The notes beneath the pieces were generated by a model. That model was not told the origin of the DNA. It saw only the letters and a program-made list of their open reading frames with translations, and did not search any database. The position numbers and the translations under genes are program-made. A stretch of DNA of 64,000 bases from Pseudobdellovibrionaceae bacterium. Lineage in GTDB: Bacteria > Bdellovibrionota > Bdellovibrionia > Bdellovibrionales > Bdellovibrionaceae. The stretch is taken from positions 62,001 to 126,000 of the forward strand of contig JAOASS010000006.1 of the NCBI GenBank assembly GCA_030158485.1, written 5' to 3'. The first letter of the stretch is position 1, and each line of letters opens with the position of its first letter. Shown here piece after piece: positions 15,880-54,138 of the stretch.

Positions 15880-17379
15880 ATGAAGTTTAAAATTTTGTTT
15901 CTGATTTCAGTTCTTTCGGTCGTTTTGATCGCAATTCTATTGTCACAGGAATCTCGATTTAAATCAGGCTTATCTGATGTTCGAAAACCTTCTGGATTTT
16001 TTGATTTTATTTTTAAAAAAAATGAGATCGAAAATATTACTTTAATGAAATGTGCAAACTGTAAAAATCCCTATTCTGAACCAGGAACAGTTCAGCTTGA
16101 AAGTAAAACATCTTGTTCTTCTGATCGATTATATTATCAAAATAACTTTGAAAAAATATCAGACGTATTCAAGTTAAAAAGAAATAATTTTGTCGAAGCT
16201 CATTTCGCAGATGCTTGTGTTGTCCATATCATGAGAAGCGCGGGTGCTTATGACTCACCGAGCTCTTCCATCACTCAATGTGAAAGTGAAGATTCGGCGC
16301 CAATTAAAGTTCTTTCCAAAAAAGCTGAATGTGAAGACTCATCAAAAAATCAGTCAAATGAATGCAAAAAAGTAAAGGGCCATAAGCTAGCTTGTGTCAC
16401 TTCAGAATACGCATATTCGACTTATAACGCATTCGTCGATGTGATGGATTGTTTGGCTATTCCGCAAAGAGAACTCTTGCCTAAAATTTGGAATGAAAGT
16501 CAATTTCATGTGAACATATATGGAAAAGGTGATGATGCAGGAATCGGGCAGTTAACCGGTGATGCAATTCAAGAAGTCACAAAACCAAAATACGCCGATC
16601 GTGATTTGCTTGAAATTGAGTATTACAAAAAAGAAATGGAAAAAGCAGATAAGCCATCTTGTAATCGAATTCTAGCAGAAAAATCTGCTTGGAAAATCGT
16701 AGGCTCCAGTCCTTCTGTTCGATGTGGTCTTTTGACTCCTGAATCAAATCCTTTAAGAAATATTTTATACACGGGAATTTTTTATCGAGTCATTACCAGT
16801 CGTATAACAGGAATTTATTATAGGGCAGGTAAGGAATTTATTCGAACACCTGGCGGATATATTGAACGAAGAGAAAGTGAAAACACACCTCTGATGGGAA
16901 GCATAAATGAACTTCATATTATTGAAAAAATGCAGACTGCGGGTATTGAAAACCCCAATATGGATTACTTAAAACAAGTTTTAGTCAGCTTAGCTTTTAA
17001 TGCAGGTTCTAGTCAGGCGATGAAACTTTTTGATAATTTTTTAAAATCAAAAATAGCACATAACCTCACAATCAAAGAAGAAGATTTAGATTTCATCAAT
17101 GCAAATAGCTTAAGAGATATGGCATTGCTCACGGCTCCAGATGGCGAAACCGAAGAAAGTAAAGTGGCTCGACTGGCACAGTTGGAAGAAGTTAGAAATG
17201 TTGCTTATGAAAGAAATCTTCCTCAGTTTTTACGACTTATGCAAAGTGGTGGTGCCCCAGGCTATGTCAGTAAAATTGCTTATCGAACAACAATGCTTAA
17301 TCGCGAAATAGGAGACGGAATATGTACCCAGCCATCTTTCTTGCAGCACTCATTAGTTCAAGCGTCAGCGCAAGAGTGA
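15880..17379 (+). CDS. Exported SLT-like (lysozyme-fold) protein
   Basis: 499 residues with an N-terminal hydrophobic anchor or signal at about 3-23. The first 180 residues are Cys-rich and unrecognised. A lytic-transglycosylase-like core begins near residue 195: IWNESQFHVN gives a candidate catalytic Glu at 206, GIGQLTGDA corresponds to the family's GLMQ block, and SLAFNAGSS near 365 corresponds to the AYNAG motif. The core is expanded by inserts compared with standard SLT domains. It probably acts on murein in the periplasm. The 3' end overlaps the next secreted-protein gene by 58 bases. Confidence 0.72.
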   Translation: MKFKILFLISVLSVVLIAILLSQESRFKSGLSDVRKPSGFFDFIFKKNEIENITLMKCANCKNPYSEPGTVQLESKTSCSSDRLYYQNNFEKISDVFKLKRNNFVEAHFADACVVHIMRSAGAYDSPSSSITQCESEDSAPIKVLSKKAECEDSSKNQSNECKKVKGHKLACVTSEYAYSTYNAFVDVMDCLAIPQRELLPKIWNESQFHVNIYGKGDDAGIGQLTGDAIQEVTKPKYADRDLLEIEYYKKEMEKADKPSCNRILAEKSAWKIVGSSPSVRCGLLTPESNPLRNILYTGIFYRVITSRITGIYYRAGKEFIRTPGGYIERRESENTPLMGSINELHIIEKMQTAGIENPNMDYLKQVLVSLAFNAGSSQAMKLFDNFLKSKIAHNLTIKEEDLDFINANSLRDMALLTAPDGETEESKVARLAQLEEVRNVAYERNLPQFLRLMQSGGAPGYVSKIAYRTTMLNREIGDGICTQPSFLQHSLVQASAQE

Positions 17380-36014: not shown

Positions 36015-36823
36015 AAATATCATCAGCCCTTTTTATTTTCGCTCTGATTATTTTAATTTTGATTGCGACATTTAAGTTTCCAGATTCATTTGTCGAAGTC
36101 GAGTCAAGCCAAGCTTTGCAATCATTTTCAGAAAAACACTGGCTTGGAACAGACTCCTTAGGACGAGATTATTTTTGGCGATTAGTGCTCGCGCTTCGGA
36201 CTAGTTTTCTGATAGCTTTTGGAAGTACATTTGTTTCATTTTTTATCGGTGTAGGATTGGGAAGTTGGTCTGCTTGGTCAAAAACTGATTCAAGCTACAC
36301 TTTGAACCGCTTTTTTGATGTGATTCAAGGTTTACCGAGCTTCTTATTTTTGGCCGTCATGATGCAATTTTATATTTCAAAGTCAACTTTGGTTTCTACG
36401 ATTGCATTGGCACTCTTTTGTGGTTTTTTTCATTGGCCTCAATTGGCAAGATTGACCAGGTCTCAAATATTTAAAACGATGCAAGAGCCATTTGTCGAAG
36501 CTGCTATTTCACTTGGAGCTACGCCGTATCATATTTTTAGAAGACACCTTTGGCCTTCAGTCTACGGTATCTGGCTGACTTGGTTTTGTTTTCAGATACC
36601 AGCGGAAATTATGTTTGAAAGTACTCTTAGTTTTTTAGGATTCGGAATCCAACCGCCACAAACAAGTTTGGGTCTTTTGATTCAAGAAGGGTGGAAATAC
36701 TTAGATGATCAACCCATCTTTTTGTTTGCTCCAGCTCTTTTAAGTTTTTTAGTTGTGATAAGTTTTAGAATGCTATTATCAAATTTAAGGAAGGATTTCG
36801 ATGAGCAAAAAATCATGGTGTGA
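36011..36823 (+). CDS. ABC peptide transporter permease, DppC/OppC type
   Basis: 270 residues. A first membrane segment precedes the OppC-like periplasmic motif HWLGTDSLGRDYFWR, followed by five segments and an EAA loop (VEAAISLGATPYHIFRRHLWP). It starts at an ATG overlapping the previous stop (ATGA), and its own 3' end overlaps the next gene by 23 bases. Together with the DppB-type gene it forms a heterodimeric channel for peptides, possibly murein peptides given the slt partner. That substrate is inferred. Confidence 0.92.
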   Translation: MKISSALFIFALIILILIATFKFPDSFVEVESSQALQSFSEKHWLGTDSLGRDYFWRLVLALRTSFLIAFGSTFVSFFIGVGLGSWSAWSKTDSSYTLNRFFDVIQGLPSFLFLAVMMQFYISKSTLVSTIALALFCGFFHWPQLARLTRSQIFKTMQEPFVEAAISLGATPYHIFRRHLWPSVYGIWLTWFCFQIPAEIMFESTLSFLGFGIQPPQTSLGLLIQEGWKYLDDQPIFLFAPALLSFLVVISFRMLLSNLRKDFDEQKIMV

Positions 36824-37319
36824 GATTCGAATTTCTGGAAAAAGTGTTAAGATAGATCGCGAAGATCTAAAAAAAGTAGAACAGAAAACATGGAGAATTA
36901 CAAAAGGCACAACGGGTCGCCCCCGTGTTGTCACTTCTATTCGGACTCCGGAAGGGGTTCGTTCTGTTACTTTGGGCAAGTTTTTAATGAATCCAGCGAA
37001 AAATAAACAGGTTTATTGTCAGCGGTTTAATGAAGGCTTGGATTACAGAAAAGAAAACTTAATAGTTTGTACATTAAAAGAAAGGCAAAGATTATTGCCT
37101 AAGCGGCGCGCAGAATCTTCATCTCAGTATCGAGGAGTATCCAAGCAAACTTTGAGTGGTAAGTGGCGGGCTGGTATTGAAGTTGAGGGCTCGCAGATTA
37201 ATTTAGGTGAGTTCGCAAAAGAAGCTGATGCAGCCTTAGCCTATAATAAAGCAGCTAAAAAATATTTTGGATCAAAAGCCTACCAGAACTCAGTTGGTCG
37301 AAAAAAAAATCCACGGTAA
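36801..37319 (+). CDS. AP2-domain protein with decayed HNH-like region
   Basis: 172 residues. The C-terminal 60 residues form an AP2/ERF DNA-binding domain (SSQYRGVSKQ, W-R-A-GIEV, LGEFAKEADAALAYN, AAKKYFG). The middle resembles the HNH fold of phage HNH-AP2 homing endonucleases, including a GLDYRKENLIVCT segment. The expected catalytic D/H-H-N positions read C-Q-R-F, so nuclease activity looks lost. It probably binds DNA. The ribosome site AAGGA lies inside the DppC-type gene, which it overlaps by 23 bases. It may be a domesticated mobile gene. Confidence 0.78.
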   Translation: MSKKSWCEIRISGKSVKIDREDLKKVEQKTWRITKGTTGRPRVVTSIRTPEGVRSVTLGKFLMNPAKNKQVYCQRFNEGLDYRKENLIVCTLKERQRLLPKRRAESSSQYRGVSKQTLSGKWRAGIEVEGSQINLGEFAKEADAALAYNKAAKKYFGSKAYQNSVGRKKNPR

Positions 37320-37366: not shown

Positions 37367-38476
37367 TCAACCAATCGAAGGCAAGGGTCTGAACATGTCT
37401 TTCAGTTCTGGTTTCTGTAAAGGTTGAGCTTCAAAAGTCGAAATCCAGGTTTCAGGAGTTTCCATGCAAAGAAAAATCTTCCACCTATCTGAATTATTTT
37501 TAAAGAGATTATAAACAAACTTGAACATTTCATTTCGAAGACTGGCATCATAACGAAGTTTGGCCCCTTCCGAAGGAAACATTTCAGCTTGAGTCACAAG
37601 CGAATTTAAACCAAATCGTTTTTTCATCATGTGTCGTTGCTCAGGTTGAAACCTGAGTGTTCCTAAAGAAATAACATTAACTTGTTCAGGTAAAAATTGA
37701 GTTGTGATTCGAGAAACAAGCTCTGTGTAGTTTTCTTGCCAGTTTGTGTGGTAGATGAGTGGGTCTAAATGAAATGCCACACTAAAACCAGCTTGGATAC
37801 ACTTCAGAGCTGCGCCCAAGCGATCATTGAGTGAAGCTGTTCCATGTTCTTCTTTTTGAATAACATAATCGGCATTTAAGGACCAGCTGACAACTGTATT
37901 TTGAGAAGGTCCAAGATCTAAAAATTGATCAACTTGGTCTGACTTTGTTTTAAATTCCAAAGTCCATTTTGGGTACTGAGTAAAAAACGAGATCAATTTT
38001 CGCGAATAAAGAGTCAATGGATCTAAAGCTAAAGAGTCAATAATTTCTCCGGTTCCGACTCGAAAAGGCAAATGAGAATTCGTATCAGCCATCATTTTAA
38101 GCTCTGATAAAGCTTGATCAATATTTGTGAATATTTTTGAAACTGGTGAGTTGAGATAACTTTGGAGATAACAATAGCTACAATTCATGGGGCACTGTGA
38201 ACCTAAATTTAAAACATGATAATTGCAGCAGTTTAAGACTTTTTTTTGTGTTGATCCAGGACAGCGCTTGAAAAACTGTCCATCAAAAGGTGTTAGGAAA
38301 ATATTTTTTTTTGATCGATCAAATTCTTCAGCAGTTAAATTTCTTTTAATTTCACTCCAGGGTTCATTTTCTACGATTTCAATTTTATTTTTTGGAAAAA
38401 TTTGGCGAGCTCTATCTGCAACTTCGGAATTAACAGATCTTTTATCTATAAAAATTTTTTCTAGATTATGAATCAT
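37367..38476 (-). CDS. Spore photoproduct lyase-like radical SAM protein
   Basis: 369 residues. The radical SAM cluster motif is C-PMN-C-SY-C in a block (GSQCPMNCSYCYLQSYLNS) very like SplB, and SLNADYVI matches SplB's SINADYVI. The rest follows the SplB TIM-barrel plan. SplB's hydrogen-donor cysteine position is occupied by a GTGE stretch, so classic spore thymine-dimer chemistry is doubtful. The ATG at 38476 overlaps the stop of the upstream gene (ATGA); an ATG 15 bases earlier is possible. Translational coupling marks the upstream protein as a likely partner. Confidence 0.85.
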   Translation of the reverse strand: MIHNLEKIFIDKRSVNSEVADRARQIFPKNKIEIVENEPWSEIKRNLTAEEFDRSKKNIFLTPFDGQFFKRCPGSTQKKVLNCCNYHVLNLGSQCPMNCSYCYLQSYLNSPVSKIFTNIDQALSELKMMADTNSHLPFRVGTGEIIDSLALDPLTLYSRKLISFFTQYPKWTLEFKTKSDQVDQFLDLGPSQNTVVSWSLNADYVIQKEEHGTASLNDRLGAALKCIQAGFSVAFHLDPLIYHTNWQENYTELVSRITTQFLPEQVNVISLGTLRFQPEQRHMMKKRFGLNSLVTQAEMFPSEGAKLRYDASLRNEMFKFVYNLFKNNSDRWKIFLCMETPETWISTFEAQPLQKPELKDMFRPLPSIG

Positions 38477-39237
38477 GCTTTCAAATTCCATTCTTGTGCT
38501 ACTTTTGTCAGATTTTGGGCTAATTTATTAAGTTCAACAGGGGTTCCTGCAAAAAACTGAATATCAAATCCAGCTTTGTCCCCTTGGCGTTTGAATTTTT
38601 TCTTAATTTGTGAAGACCATGGAAGTGACGTAGCACTTAAGGATTGGTCTCGAGATGTTGTGACAGGATGGCGTAATTGCAACAATTGATTTTGATTTAA
38701 ATCTTGAAGACATTCGGTTGTATTTTTCATTTGAATAAGGTCGCATAACAGTTCAATTCTTTTAACTGAGTCTTGCTTGCTTTCGTTGGCGTTGAGAACT
38801 TCTTGGGTTACAAAAATTCTGTTATCTTCATCTAACATAAGAAGAGGCACAAGTTCTTGGGGTCCTATTTTTTTAAAGCTGACGAAATTTTGAAAATCTG
38901 AATTGCAGTTAAAAAGAAGATTGAGAATTTCAGTCAATTCAGGAGAAGCATGATATTGATAAGCTTTTAATAAGGAATCGATTTCAAAATATTGACTGAA
39001 TACGGGTGACTTTATGAGCCGAGCCAATTCAGGTAGTGTGAGTTGGGGATAAATTGACTTTAAAAGAATGAGCGAATGGTCCTGGTTTTGGAAAGTATGT
39101 TCAAACACAGGGTGATGAGAGCTGAGGTTAAAACCGCAAATAAGTTGGTTACTTAAAGCCAAAGCGGGAACAGAAGCGGGCCATTCATTTGAGGGTTTAA
39201 AATCGAGGTCCATCAAAAAATCAGGTTTCAATTTCAT
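38473..39237 (-). CDS. Unknown protein coupled to the SPL-like radical SAM gene
   Basis: 254 residues, no signal peptide or membrane segment. The central part is helical (LTLPELARLIKSPVFSQYF), and the C-terminal 60 residues include a basic KKKFKRQG stretch and an FFAGTPVELNKLAQNL segment that could bind nucleic acid. No family is recognised with confidence. It overlaps the radical SAM gene by 4 bases and so is likely to act with it, for example as substrate-recognition subunit. Its start is only 21 bases from the divergent gene at 39259. Confidence 0.6.
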   Translation of the reverse strand: MKLKPDFLMDLDFKPSNEWPASVPALALSNQLICGFNLSSHHPVFEHTFQNQDHSLILLKSIYPQLTLPELARLIKSPVFSQYFEIDSLLKAYQYHASPELTEILNLLFNCNSDFQNFVSFKKIGPQELVPLLMLDEDNRIFVTQEVLNANESKQDSVKRIELLCDLIQMKNTTECLQDLNQNQLLQLRHPVTTSRDQSLSATSLPWSSQIKKKFKRQGDKAGFDIQFFAGTPVELNKLAQNLTKVAQEWNLKA

Positions 39238-39258: not shown

Positions 39259-40320
39259 ATGACGAATTGGCAACATTGGCAAAAGCGAGCTCAAATCAAA
39301 GGTGATGTTGCATTTTTTTCTTATACGACTCCTGGAGTTGAAAAGGAAGCCAGTCAAGTTTTTGTTTGGGATTTGGATAAAACTTATCTCGATACTTCAA
39401 TTGATAGCATGAGTGGTCTTTTGCAGACCATTCTTGAAAAAGCCATGAACAAAAAAAATGTTCCAGGCACGGGAGTTTTACTTCAAGCGCTTTCAAGGCG
39501 CACGCAAGTTGGACAAAAAGATCAAATTGGAAATTTTCCGATCTACTTTATAACAGCTTCTCCTCCGCAGATGGAAGAGCGTATTATTGAAAAGATGGCG
39601 CTTGATCAGCTTCGTCCATTAGGTTGTTTTTTTAAAGATAATTTAAAAAATTTAAAACCAAATCGTTGGTGGCGTCTGACAAAACAAGTGGGGTTTAAAT
39701 TACAAGCTTTATTAGAGCTTCGAACTCGACTCCGTGAAGATGTCAGGCAAATTTGTTGGGGTGATGATTCTGAATCTGATGCCATTATTTATAATCTTTA
39801 TTCGGATATTTGCGCCAGACGTCTTTCCACAAATGAAGCTCGGTATGTGCTAGAAGATTTAAAGTGCACAAGTGATCAAATTGATGAAATTTTACTCTTA
39901 CAATCTCAAATTCCTGATCGTGATCCAGTTGAAAAAATTTATATTAATTTGGCAAAAGACACAGACCCTGATTATTACCTCAAGTTTGGTCGCAGGACGT
40001 TGCCGACGATGAACACTTTTCAGGCGACTTTAGATCTTTATCAGTTTGGTTTTCTTGATCTAAAAGATGTTTACGAAGTCGCAAATAATATGACTTCTGA
40101 ATATGATTTTACAACAGAAGAGCTTATGATGTCTTTTCAAGAACTATTACGTCGCGGAGTCATTCAAGAAAAAACCTATCAGAAATTAAAACCTTTTTTC
40201 TGTGAAAAGGGTTTGTTACACAAATCTTTTGCTCCGGATATGCCACTGGTAAATGAGGAAACAGTGGTCCATGATCCGTGGATACCTGATCGGATCGATT
40301 ATCTTAATGATTTTCGTTAA
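39259..40320 (+). CDS. App1-like HAD-family phosphatase (DUF2183-like)
   Basis: 353 residues. The HAD nucleophile motif is VFVWDLDKTYLDT (DxDxT) near residues 38-44. An ITASPPQMEERI block resembles the second motif of App1-type phosphatidate phosphatases, and ICWGDDSESDAI supplies the acidic motif IV. The C-terminal 100 residues are helical and unrecognised. No signal peptide or membrane segment, so it is cytoplasmic. The substrate could be a lipid phosphate or something else. A GAGGAGGT ribosome site lies 10 bases upstream of the ATG. Confidence 0.72.
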   Translation: MTNWQHWQKRAQIKGDVAFFSYTTPGVEKEASQVFVWDLDKTYLDTSIDSMSGLLQTILEKAMNKKNVPGTGVLLQALSRRTQVGQKDQIGNFPIYFITASPPQMEERIIEKMALDQLRPLGCFFKDNLKNLKPNRWWRLTKQVGFKLQALLELRTRLREDVRQICWGDDSESDAIIYNLYSDICARRLSTNEARYVLEDLKCTSDQIDEILLLQSQIPDRDPVEKIYINLAKDTDPDYYLKFGRRTLPTMNTFQATLDLYQFGFLDLKDVYEVANNMTSEYDFTTEELMMSFQELLRRGVIQEKTYQKLKPFFCEKGLLHKSFAPDMPLVNEETVVHDPWIPDRIDYLNDFR

Positions 40321-48463: not shown

Positions 48464-49438
48464 TTACGGTTCATTTGATTTTTTGTTTGTCGTCAAATTT
48501 TTTTCTCCATCTATATTGTTTTTCATATGTGCTGAAACAACTTTCATTTTTTCTAAAGCCCAGTTGCAAGTGGTTTTAATATCACGCCGAATGACATTTG
48601 CAGGAACGTTGCGTTTTTTTCCATTTTTTAATTCGGCAAAGGGATTATTTTGAATTCTATCATCATCACATAAGTTTGCGAAATCTTGAACGAAGCTATC
48701 ATACTGCGCAGGGTTTAATTCAGAGTTTATTTCAGCAGCTATTTGAGTTTCGCGAACACTCGAGAGCTTAGAACAAGCTTCTGTTGGCCATGCACCTTTA
48801 GACACGCAAAGTGGTTTTGCTACGTTTTCGCAGCCTTTTAGTTTTTCACATTTTTTTGGTAATTTAAGGCCAAATAAAATGGGATTGCACATTGTTTGGT
48901 TTTTTAAGCAAATCATTTGAGAAGAATCAACGCCTAGAATTTTAAAGTTTTCAGGAAATTTTTGTTGAGCTTGGCAGGGATCACTTTTTATGACCCAACC
49001 TGAATACATACATCTAAAGTAGGCGGTATCAGCAGAAGCAACAGGTTTTGAGCTTGGTTTGATAGATGCTGAAGAAGCTACTGAAGAAACTGTTTTTTGA
49101 AGATTCACATCATGAACATCCGTGAATGTGCTTGAATCCTGATTCATTTTTTTTCCAGTTTTAAGTGCGACTAATTTTTGAATATCTAGACTCGTCAAGG
49201 TCGTTGGTTTGATAACTGAAGCTGGACTACGTGACGATGTTGAAGTTTCGTCTTCTGAAGCCATATACAAACTTTGTTTGGCCATAGCTGCAAAAATTTT
49301 TTGAATTGATTTTAAATACTCAGCTTGTCGTTGTCGATTTAAGGATTTGAACTCTTGTGAGTTTAAAAGATAAGAGTCTGTGTTACCCAACGCCCTTAAG
49401 CTTCCAATAAGTATCAAAAGTAGGGTTAAAAATTTCAT
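48464..49438 (-). CDS. Exported Cys-rich protein coupled to the LAS-type peptidase gene
   Basis: 324 residues from the ATG at 49438, which overlaps the stop of the upstream peptidase gene (ATGA). A signal peptide (MKFLTLLLILIGSLRALG) is followed by a Ser-rich low-complexity region to about residue 120. A Cys-rich domain comes next, with short pairs such as FRCMYSG, MICLKNQTMCNPILFG, KCEKLKGCEN and LCVSKG. It is probably disulfide-bonded in the periplasm. I do not recognise the family. Co-translation with the peptidase suggests a common task on the cell wall. Confidence 0.65.
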   Translation of the reverse strand: MKFLTLLLILIGSLRALGNTDSYLLNSQEFKSLNRQRQAEYLKSIQKIFAAMAKQSLYMASEDETSTSSRSPASVIKPTTLTSLDIQKLVALKTGKKMNQDSSTFTDVHDVNLQKTVSSVASSASIKPSSKPVASADTAYFRCMYSGWVIKSDPCQAQQKFPENFKILGVDSSQMICLKNQTMCNPILFGLKLPKKCEKLKGCENVAKPLCVSKGAWPTEACSKLSSVRETQIAAEINSELNPAQYDSFVQDFANLCDDDRIQNNPFAELKNGKKRNVPANVIRRDIKTTCNWALEKMKVVSAHMKNNIDGEKNLTTNKKSNEP

Positions 49439-50931
49439 AGACTCACTCCATTTTCGCAAGATTCTTTAAGCTTTGGATTAATCACTGAATTTTCTTTGGA
49501 ACCTGTATTACTAGGAAAACAAATATGCAGATGAGTATCATGCACACCCGTTTTATCGTAACTACATCCACCTTGTCCGGTAATTTGACTTTCCATAGTC
49601 AGACAATTTGATTGTCCTAGTTTTTTAAGCATTCTCATCATCGGGCCCAACTTGCTATCAGCCATTCGCGAAGTATTAATATCAAGACATTCTCCATTTG
49701 TATGGGAAACATGCGGCCATGGACTGTTTTTTTTACCAGTGCGAACTTTATTTTTATGGTATGCATGACTGGCGTCTCCGAATTCGATTAAACAATCATC
49801 TTGCCCCTGACAAGCTTGATTCCATGACTTTAAAAATTGCATAAATCCGCATGCGACATCTGGTTTCAAGTAAGCATCGGCATTTCCTGGTTCTGCTCCG
49901 TAATGAAGTGAATTAAAAGGGCCTATTCTTTTTTGACCTTCACCCGTAAGTGGTATTTGAACGAATCCTCTCGAATCAACAAAGTTAATTTGAGATAAGG
50001 AAGAAGTTTTTTTAAGGTCACTGGCTTCTGCTGGAAGACCTAATGCTGGGAAGGATAAAATATGACGAATTGGGTTCAGAATAGATTCTTCAAGGGGCAC
50101 TAAAGATTTAAAAACATTATTTTGGCAAACAAAACAATTGGCATCAACGGGAAGATCAATTTGTTCACCTTTTTTATCGGCGACATTCATTAATTGAAAA
50201 ATAGGATAGTTTGTACATCGATCGGTTCCTTTTAAGCAGCATTGATTGACTTCATAACCATCAGGCCCTTGGTTTAATTTTAAGGCTAAAGGCAATAACG
50301 ATTTATAGTTATTATTTTTTAAATAATGATTCAGTTTTGTGAAAAGCTCAGAGTCTTGTTTGACAACAAAAATAAAGTCTTTTTGTTTATCAACTTTTTC
50401 TAAATCTGCAATTTTTAAAAAACCAGTACTTCCAACTTCTGCTTGCTGAATATTCGAAGATCCCACTGCTTTTGCGACTTCTTTTGTTTTTTTTAAATGA
50501 GCTTCCTGTAGTTTTTTATTTTCCGGTGGTAAGGAAATAACTTTTATAGGCACCCACTCTTGACCTTGAGACTTTGAAAACGTTCCTGTTTTTTCAATCA
50601 AATCACGGTATTGATCTGAAACTAAAACAAGAGATCTCTTAGGAACAATAAAAGGTTTTCCATCGGGCTTGTTTTTTTCATCCAGAGTTGTTTGGCCTTG
50701 GTAGTAGTTGGCATATTTATTTTCACGGCCTCTTTCAACAGCGTCTTGATCTGATTTTGCATCGTAACCCGTCGGAACAACAAAAACGGGTGGAGTTTTA
50801 ACAAAAGCTTGATTGCATTCTGTTTCAAGCTCCGCGGCCTTCAAACTTTGAGGTTTCAACACAAAGATTAAGACAGTATGAAGACTAAGAAAAATAGAAA
50901 TTAATTTTATCATCACAAGTAGGTTTCTCAT
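49435..50931 (-). CDS. Exported LAS-type metallopeptidase-like protein
   Basis: 498 residues with an N-terminal hydrophobic signal (about 7-27). The last 150 residues carry the zinc-site pattern of LAS enzymes (MepA/VanY/hedgehog fold): HTNGECLD (His, then Asp seven residues on) at about 405, and HDTHLHICF (Asp-x-His-x-His) at about 463. Such enzymes cut peptide bonds in murein. The 350 residues before it are unrecognised and contain four Cys (QCCLKG ... CFVCQN). Start ATG 50931; an internal ATG at 50913 is an alternative. Confidence 0.72.
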   Translation of the reverse strand: MRNLLVMIKLISIFLSLHTVLIFVLKPQSLKAAELETECNQAFVKTPPVFVVPTGYDAKSDQDAVERGRENKYANYYQGQTTLDEKNKPDGKPFIVPKRSLVLVSDQYRDLIEKTGTFSKSQGQEWVPIKVISLPPENKKLQEAHLKKTKEVAKAVGSSNIQQAEVGSTGFLKIADLEKVDKQKDFIFVVKQDSELFTKLNHYLKNNNYKSLLPLALKLNQGPDGYEVNQCCLKGTDRCTNYPIFQLMNVADKKGEQIDLPVDANCFVCQNNVFKSLVPLEESILNPIRHILSFPALGLPAEASDLKKTSSLSQINFVDSRGFVQIPLTGEGQKRIGPFNSLHYGAEPGNADAYLKPDVACGFMQFLKSWNQACQGQDDCLIEFGDASHAYHKNKVRTGKKNSPWPHVSHTNGECLDINTSRMADSKLGPMMRMLKKLGQSNCLTMESQITGQGGCSYDKTGVHDTHLHICFPSNTGSKENSVINPKLKESCENGVSL

Positions 50932-52899: not shown

Positions 52900-54138
52900 A
52901 TGAAACCCACATTTTTTGTGATTTCAGTGTTAATCGGGTTTAATTTTTTAACCATCACGGGTTGTTCTGGTGGTGGCAGCACAGCGGATCCTGCGGCAGC
53001 TCCAATCACGAATGATAATACCGGTTTTGATAGCGCAGAATTTTTTGTTGGAGTTGGTAATTCAGATAAAATTACTTCCCACACAAGAACAGACGCGTCG
53101 TTTTCAACGAGTTGTTCTATTCCTGCTAATACCACTAGCGAAGATATGACTTGTATTATTGATGTTCCAGAAGCAGATCTTCACTATCATGGATTAGAAA
53201 TTAGTTACAATGTACCAGAATCCATGTGTCGATATTTATCTCGTGAAACTTATTGGTTCTATAATCAAGAAGTTGGATATGGACCGACGGCAGTTCGAAT
53301 CAACAAAACTGTGAACGACGCCGGAGATGTTCTGTCATTTCAATGTTCTGTGAATGGTGGAGCCGTTGGGGCTTGTTCGGGACTCACTGAAATTGATGTG
53401 GACTCAAGTGATTCGACTGTGACTTGTAAGTATGATCGTACACAAATTGAATTAGCTAATTGTTGTTTTGGTGAATACACATTGACTCAGCAAACAACAA
53501 ATACAGATACCGCTGAAGTTTCAACAGAAACAAGTGAGAACAAATGGGGCGGTGACTGGAAGTCTTGTATTGGTGGTGCTGGGAAAACAAACTGGAGTTG
53601 GTTTTCCAGAAGTAATTTTCCTGTCAGCGTGGTCGAAGACGCTGAAGATGGGCTTGCTGAAGAGTACAAAATCACTTCGCCCTTAAATGCAACAACTGAT
53701 ACATGGAATTTATCGACTGCAAATTATTATACTCCGGCAACGCACACCCATGATGGATATATTGATGCTCGGTCAACGAATTTACCTTATTTTATAGATC
53801 CAGTCGATGATCGCGATGGTACTTTAATACCTGTAGCGAACCCAGCTTATACTTTTTCTTGTTTAGATGAATCTTATGAAATTCAAAACCGAATAAGTGT
53901 TTACGTCAGAGAATGGGACGTATACACAGATTATTTGGCATATATTGCAAGCGCAGGGGTCACTTCTGATCCAGATCGTCCAGGAGAAACAGAGCCTGCC
54001 GATTGCGATGGCGTTGATGGAAATTGTAATGATAAGTGGGATCTGGATGATTTTATAAATGAATATTTAACGGGTCCTTATGAAACAGCGACGGCAGCGT
54101 TAAGAAGACTTAATTTTCCAGAACAAATTTATGAATAG
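52900..54138 (+). CDS. Lipoprotein of unknown function
   Basis: 412 residues. A signal peptide ends in the lipobox TITGC, with Cys about residue 22, followed by SGGGSTADPAAAP, a typical lipoprotein spacer. The mature protein is Asp/Thr/Ser-rich with about a dozen Cys, including CCFGEY, CSVNGGAVGAC and a late DCDGVDGNCNDKWDLDDF acidic stretch that might bind calcium. No known family is recognised. An outer-membrane or surface location is likely. ATG at 52900 with a GGAG site. Confidence 0.7.
   Translation: MKPTFFVISVLIGFNFLTITGCSGGGSTADPAAAPITNDNTGFDSAEFFVGVGNSDKITSHTRTDASFSTSCSIPANTTSEDMTCIIDVPEADLHYHGLEISYNVPESMCRYLSRETYWFYNQEVGYGPTAVRINKTVNDAGDVLSFQCSVNGGAVGACSGLTEIDVDSSDSTVTCKYDRTQIELANCCFGEYTLTQQTTNTDTAEVSTETSENKWGGDWKSCIGGAGKTNWSWFSRSNFPVSVVEDAEDGLAEEYKITSPLNATTDTWNLSTANYYTPATHTHDGYIDARSTNLPYFIDPVDDRDGTLIPVANPAYTFSCLDESYEIQNRISVYVREWDVYTDYLAYIASAGVTSDPDRPGETEPADCDGVDGNCNDKWDLDDFINEYLTGPYETATAALRRLNFPEQIYE

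Follow-up and report, generated by a model that had tools for sequence, protein, structure and literature searches.

In spore photoproduct lyase (SplB), residues C141 and Y99 return the radical, thereby allowing SAM to be regenerated (PMC3742179). Homologues of splB have been predicted to be under LexA regulation in non-sporulating proteobacteria (PMC3323433), and an earlier study linked SplB-like photolyases to SOS genes, ImuB-C among them (PMC3765255). MTA/SAH nucleosidases remove 5'-deoxyadenosine and thereby relieve its inhibition of radical SAM enzymes (PMC6079011). ParB, Noc and Spo0J are CTP-dependent DNA clamps. In the literature searched, no relevant paper was found that linked a ParB-type protein with a spore photoproduct lyase, and the main text of a 2025 survey of ParB-fold proteins (PMC12704722) makes no mention of either radical SAM or photoproduct. 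The enzyme family analysed here connects radical SAM chemistry with the ParB fold, a link for which we found no report in that literature.

The window, i.e. the whole stretch of 64,000 nucleotides that was analysed, belongs to a Pseudobdellovibrionaceae genome of 2.48 Mb (98% complete) carrying a single copy of the enzyme, whose nearest named relatives, judging by the enzyme protein, come from metagenomes and belong to Bdellovibrionales and Bdellovibrionaceae. The original prediction of two overlapping genes, one of them encoding a protein of 254 residues, agreed fully with the open reading frames, which lie on the minus strand (Table 1). Their overlap likely reflects translational coupling, and in most of 30 orthologous loci the two genes were separated by small gaps or shared short overlaps. 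Beside the pair, at window positions 36801-37319 (plus strand), is a gene for a 172-residue protein with a sub-threshold match to the AP2 DNA-binding domain (6.5e-6), located just downstream of a pair of genes resembling those of transporter permeases. Elsewhere in the window, long open reading frames having no Pfam match at 0.001 were seen at 15880-17379 (499 residues), 49435-50931 (498 residues) and 52900-54138 (412 residues).

Table 1. Positions in the window of the enzyme and partner genes and of their main sequence features.
Feature	Position	Strand	Support
SPL-fold radical SAM protein, predicted catalytic subunit, 374 aa	37367..38491	-	Pfam SPL 3.2e-33; AF2 pLDDT 91, pTM 0.91; SPL 4fhf Z 35.9 over 327 residues
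Invariant C342 in 'CME' motif, end of last core strand	37466..37468	-	112/112
GTGE motif, residues 146-149, with E149 at the SPL donor-Cys position	38045..38056	-	alignments to Gt SPL C140 and five Cys-bearing SPL proteins
CxxxCxxC [4Fe-4S] motif, C100-C107, with Y106 inside it and Y108 just after	38171..38194	-	C100/C104/C107/Y106 112/112
CPG...CC cysteine loop, C77, C88, C89	38225..38263	-	not in SplB; 30/30 Bdellovibrionales
Overlap of enzyme and partner genes, 19 nt	38473..38491	-	ORF coordinates
Degenerate ParB-family partner (putative adaptor), 254 aa	38473..39237	-	partner-family profile to Noc 7ng0 2.1e-10, ParB 4umk 8.2e-10; AF2 pLDDT 94
C-terminal domain (CTD) of partner, tracking the enzyme across phyla	38476..38826	-	iterated HMM
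ParB/Noc DNA-binding-domain-like region, partner residues 53-172	38722..39081	-	VIA-align to Noc DBD 6y93

Fold of the enzyme and its departures from SplB

The enzyme matched the Pfam SPL family (PF20903) with 115.5 bits against a cut-off of 27, and its AlphaFold2 model superimposed on Geobacillus SPL (4fhf) along most of the chain, with the next other family, represented by SuiB, reaching a Z score of only 14.8. It missed the cut-offs of both NCBIfam equivalog models, scoring 140 bits where TIGR04070 demands 400 and 59 bits where TIGR03886 demands 438. In a family alignment of 112 sequences from many phyla, the three cysteines of the CxxxCxxC motif were present throughout. The SplB scaffold with its CxxxCxxC motif, as originally predicted for this radical SAM protein, was thus borne out. 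By the features tested, with the fold taken from a predicted model, the enzyme is an SPL-fold protein and not a spore photoproduct lyase. Family members in non-sporulating bacteria probably go under the annotation 'DNA repair photolyase' or spore photoproduct lyase, a naming that the tested features show to be wrong.

The position of the donor cysteine was determined in several ways. In two alignments to the solved Geobacillus SPL, C140 of that enzyme (corresponding to C141 in Bacillus) was paired with E149 of an RxGTGE sequence, and direct alignment placed EASC of Bacillus velezensis SplB opposite the GTGE of the window enzyme, in agreement with four other Cys-bearing SPL proteins. Glutamate was kept at position 149 in all 30 Bdellovibrionales sequences and in 105 of the 112 family members, so that the loss of the SplB cysteine to GTGE, which had been noted from this one sequence, is real and not due to chance. 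As 'GGE' is the canonical SAM-binding motif of the radical SAM superfamily, the GTGE is probably a version of that motif and not the remnant of a donor site. A Bdellovibrionota clade with glutamine in place of the glutamate (HIGTGQ; L062, L197-L200, L203) formed a long branch of its own in the tree, having kept C342 and having no CTD partner upstream. The missing cysteine alone was rejected as the novelty of this family, since other annotated SPL-family proteins also lack it, including those of Deinococcus, Streptomyces and Roseomonas with glutamate at the same position. Separately, we noted tandem SPL-family genes on a Roseomonas plasmid (L219:180-2301), one having the donor cysteine and one a glutamate, right after the partition gene repB, as well as SPL-like proteins (25-28% identity) on two phage contigs of human faecal origin that carry no annotation (MT835514.1 and MT835770.1).

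Of the two tyrosines at the end of the cluster motif, one inside it and one just after it, both found in the window enzyme, Y106 (equivalent to Y97 of Bacillus SplB) was invariant and Y108 (equivalent to Y99) was found in only 61 of the 112 sequences. The loss of the donor cysteine together with this relaxed Y99 position suggests that enzymes of the family consume SAM. The hairpin segment of SplB near its C-terminus, KWGRYGIGK, was another point of departure: its WGRYGI part, where the Geobacillus hairpin has R304 and Y305, corresponded to a gap in the window enzyme, and none of the 112 family members had residues in more than two of the six YKWGRY columns. Benjdia et al. in 2012 reportedly found that these hairpin residues enter the DNA.

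The enzyme has cysteines of its own. C342, found in every family member, has no cysteine counterpart in the SPL references, with SplB having its terminal Thr there, and in the AlphaFold2 model it was placed after the last core strand, at a point where the SPL chain reaches its final residues in the superposition. A donor cysteine elsewhere in the barrel, the finding that the original prediction had named as speaking against it, was encountered in part, as a cysteine that is invariant and comes after the last core strand. C342 could be an alternative hydrogen donor and is, judged by its conservation, the best candidate for an active-site residue acting either in that manner or covalently. The residues of the cysteine loop were less strictly kept (C77 in 103, C88 in 92 and C89 in 103 of the 112 sequences), all three being lost in the clade with a nucleosidase-like partner described below. 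An auxiliary Fe-S cluster held by C77, C88, C89 and C342 was considered and not adopted, as that clade drops the first three cysteines and keeps C342.

Ancestry of the partner and its co-inheritance with the enzyme

The partner had originally been described as lacking any recognised family, and the window protein alone indeed gave no match in single-sequence Pfam or NCBIfam scans. That description had to be given up once its relatives were used: a profile built from 39 partners matched Noc and ParB chains of known structure, with E values from 2e-10 to 1e-5. The partner homologues that precede the enzyme gene in other phyla, of about 340 residues, matched models for nucleoid occlusion as well as HTH_ParB and ParB_N, the last at up to 8.9e-11. 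The structural evidence was weaker, with the partner model reaching a Z score of 6.0 over 112 residues against the Noc DNA-binding domain (6y93), which is below the level that would stand alone; ParB, Noc and KorB nonetheless made up most of the top structural neighbours, with Spo0J also among them, at modest scores (Foldseek E 0.13-0.7). The partner is thus, as judged by profile comparison, a degenerate ParB/Noc-derived protein. Many of its relatives retain versions of the ParB nucleotide boxes, in the form of G(F/Y)RR and ENLxxR, but the window partner has lost both GERR, at which it reads CGFNLSS, and ENxxR. Because of this loss, a DNA-clamp role that may be possible in distant relatives appears doubtful in the window lineage. 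In some genera only the C-terminal part of the partner is left. That domain, the CTD, had no convincing PDB or Pfam match when searched alone, the best row being a designed protein (2.5e-4).

The CTD followed the enzyme closely. Among 60 related genomes, 32 close orthologues of the enzyme were found, every one of them with the partner gene immediately upstream, and an iterated CTD profile matched almost exclusively reading frames adjoining the enzyme gene. Of the 56 loci that did not belong to the Bdellovibrionales set (L106-L161), the CTD was found just upstream in 43 and fused to the enzyme in seven. When 291 genomes of the window's phylum were sampled, the CTD was present in 134 of 156 genomes having the enzyme, compared to two of 135 without it (Fisher p 3e-56, a value that ignores shared ancestry), with one of these two exceptions being a marginal match. 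The remaining 22 of the 156 genomes encoded an SPL-fold relative with no CTD detected, several of them from the HIGTGQ clade. In the tree, the Bdellovibrionales forms, the nucleosidase forms and the fused forms required no more than one origin each. Co-occurrence together with fusion upheld the view that the two genes are coupled and excluded an absence of co-occurrence, the outcome that would have counted against it; the enzyme and its partner, as far as genomic distribution can tell, form a real functional pair.

Some genomes carried a solitary partner without the enzyme. An APP1_cat-type phosphatase gene (window 39259-40320, plus strand; Pfam 6.5e-7) is divergent from the pair, is kept beside it in 24 Bdellovibrionales loci and still adjoins the solitary partner in loci L067 and L068. 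In one genus of the window's family (g6), the genomes listed (G007, G025, G030, G033 and others), many of them single-contig, had neither enzyme nor CTD, as if the whole lineage had lost both.

Variant loci, proposed mechanism and alternatives

The seven fusions, in which the CTD is joined to the N-terminus of the enzyme, were all from Omnitrophota (L135, L150, L151, L155-L157, L160), and in five of them a GT2 glycosyltransferase gene lay directly upstream. In nine Bdellovibrionota loci forming one clade, the ParB part was replaced by an MTA/SAH-nucleosidase-like domain (matches up to 6.6e-15), with these proteins bearing the CTD or an equivalent C-terminal part and with DRE and SD motifs conserved in the eight sequences aligned. 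Having a nucleosidase on the same putative docking domain would fit an enzyme that releases 5'-deoxyadenosine, and it offers a direct, testable clue to the turnover of SAM to this product.

The identity of the module and of its partner being well supported, the reading that we favour, with somewhat better than even confidence, is that of a two-component system in which an SPL-fold radical SAM enzyme, consuming SAM and using C342 in catalysis, acts together with a ParB-derived docking adaptor. The catalytic subunit would bind SAM via its GTGE motif, whereupon the [4Fe-4S] cluster of the CxxxCxxC motif would reductively cleave it. Most likely, SAM would be consumed as a co-substrate with release of 5'-deoxyadenosine, as we infer from the Cys-Tyr route for SAM regeneration in SplB being gone. 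The CTD of the partner would, judging from the genetics, dock on the catalytic subunit, with the N-terminal part, a putative ParB DNA-binding clamp in many phyla, a nucleosidase-like domain in one clade and a degenerate ParB in the window, bringing the substrate or removing an inhibitory by-product. For the ParB-bearing versions DNA would be a plausible substrate. The neighbouring GT2, aldo/keto reductase and nucleosidase genes make a small-molecule or glycan substrate possible too, and we therefore make no commitment to DNA. More tentatively, the loci may represent a widespread class of two-component SPL-fold systems, using either a ParB adaptor derived from a CTP clamp or a nucleosidase-bearing adaptor, docked by a domain dedicated to this, for a new SAM-consuming radical modification of DNA or of a nucleotide-linked substrate, with C342 being catalytic; this extension we hold to be possible, though short of even confidence.

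A fairly unlikely alternative is that the substrate is a small molecule, nucleoside or glycan, with the GT2, aldo/keto reductase and nucleosidase proteins forming one pathway and the ParB-derived protein being only a scaffold or regulator. The recurrence of such neighbours speaks for it, as a closely related GT2 gene was found in 38 of 105 loci (in Omnitrophota, Binatia, deltaproteobacterial lineages, KSB1 and Bdellovibrionota), an aldo/keto reductase in nine and a nucleosidase domain, in an adjacent or separate gene, in 12. However, the window genome held no GT2 orthologue (best 2.2e-5), the Bdellovibrionales loci were likewise without GT2, and many enzyme loci sat in housekeeping clusters (engB, murI, secA), so that some of the linkage may be passive.

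Repair of DNA lesions, with the SPL-fold subunit reversing UV or other base damage, C342 acting as replacement donor and the ParB-like partner loading that subunit onto DNA, we consider improbable. It would agree with the SPL fold, with the ParB/Noc kinship of the partner and the HTH_ParB match of its relatives, with an invariant C342 that could stand in for C141, and with the LexA regulation predicted for splB homologues in non-sporulating proteobacteria (PMC3323433). Against it stand the family-wide lack of the WGRYGI hairpin segment and a ParB part that is degenerate in the window and replaced by a nucleosidase elsewhere, and also the genomic surroundings: a listing of the neighbouring genes, less thorough than an exhaustive domain search, showed neither recurring repair genes nor recognisable neighbours of the ImuB-C or SOS type. 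That an SPL-like gene merely sits by chance beside an unrelated gene in one lineage is extremely improbable, for although both genes are chromosomal and local synteny alone could suffice within Bdellovibrionales, where the APP1-like neighbour is equally conserved, the association recurs across phyla in differing contexts and includes the CTD-enzyme fusions of Omnitrophota.

Comparison with known systems

With SplB of Bacillus and Geobacillus (TIGR04070; PDB 4fhc-4fhg) the enzyme shares the whole-chain fold, the CxxxCxxC motif, the Y97 position, the SLNADYVI region and membership in PF20903, but it has glutamate in place of C140/C141, does not conserve Y99 family-wide and is without the WGRYGI segment, having instead the added C77/C88/C89 loop, the invariant C342 with a C-terminal extension, and a ParB-derived partner. 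The SPL-family proteins of Deinococcus, Streptomyces and Roseomonas resemble the enzyme in their glutamate at the donor position, theirs being found in DLGEN, but have neither C342 nor the CPG/CC loop, and in the tree they fell on a long branch together with the Cys-type SPL references.

The partner shares the family profile with ParB, Noc and Spo0J and resembles them, at modest scores, in the fold of the DNA-binding region, with its full-length relatives also having the ParB_N and HTH_ParB matches. It differs from them in that the GERR of Box II reads G(F/Y)RR in many relatives, with both boxes lost in the window, in that its CTD matches no Pfam family and in being encoded together with a radical SAM enzyme. 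The MTAN/Pfs nucleosidases, acting on MTA, SAH or 5'-deoxyadenosine, correspond to the N-terminal domain that the partner has in a single clade of Bdellovibrionota, where catalytic-type motifs are kept and the activity is putative; in contrast to MTAN/Pfs, the domain is joined there to the CTD, and its gene immediately precedes that of the SPL-fold enzyme. Set against SplB itself, the enzyme family provides a natural comparison for understanding why SplB needs its cysteine.
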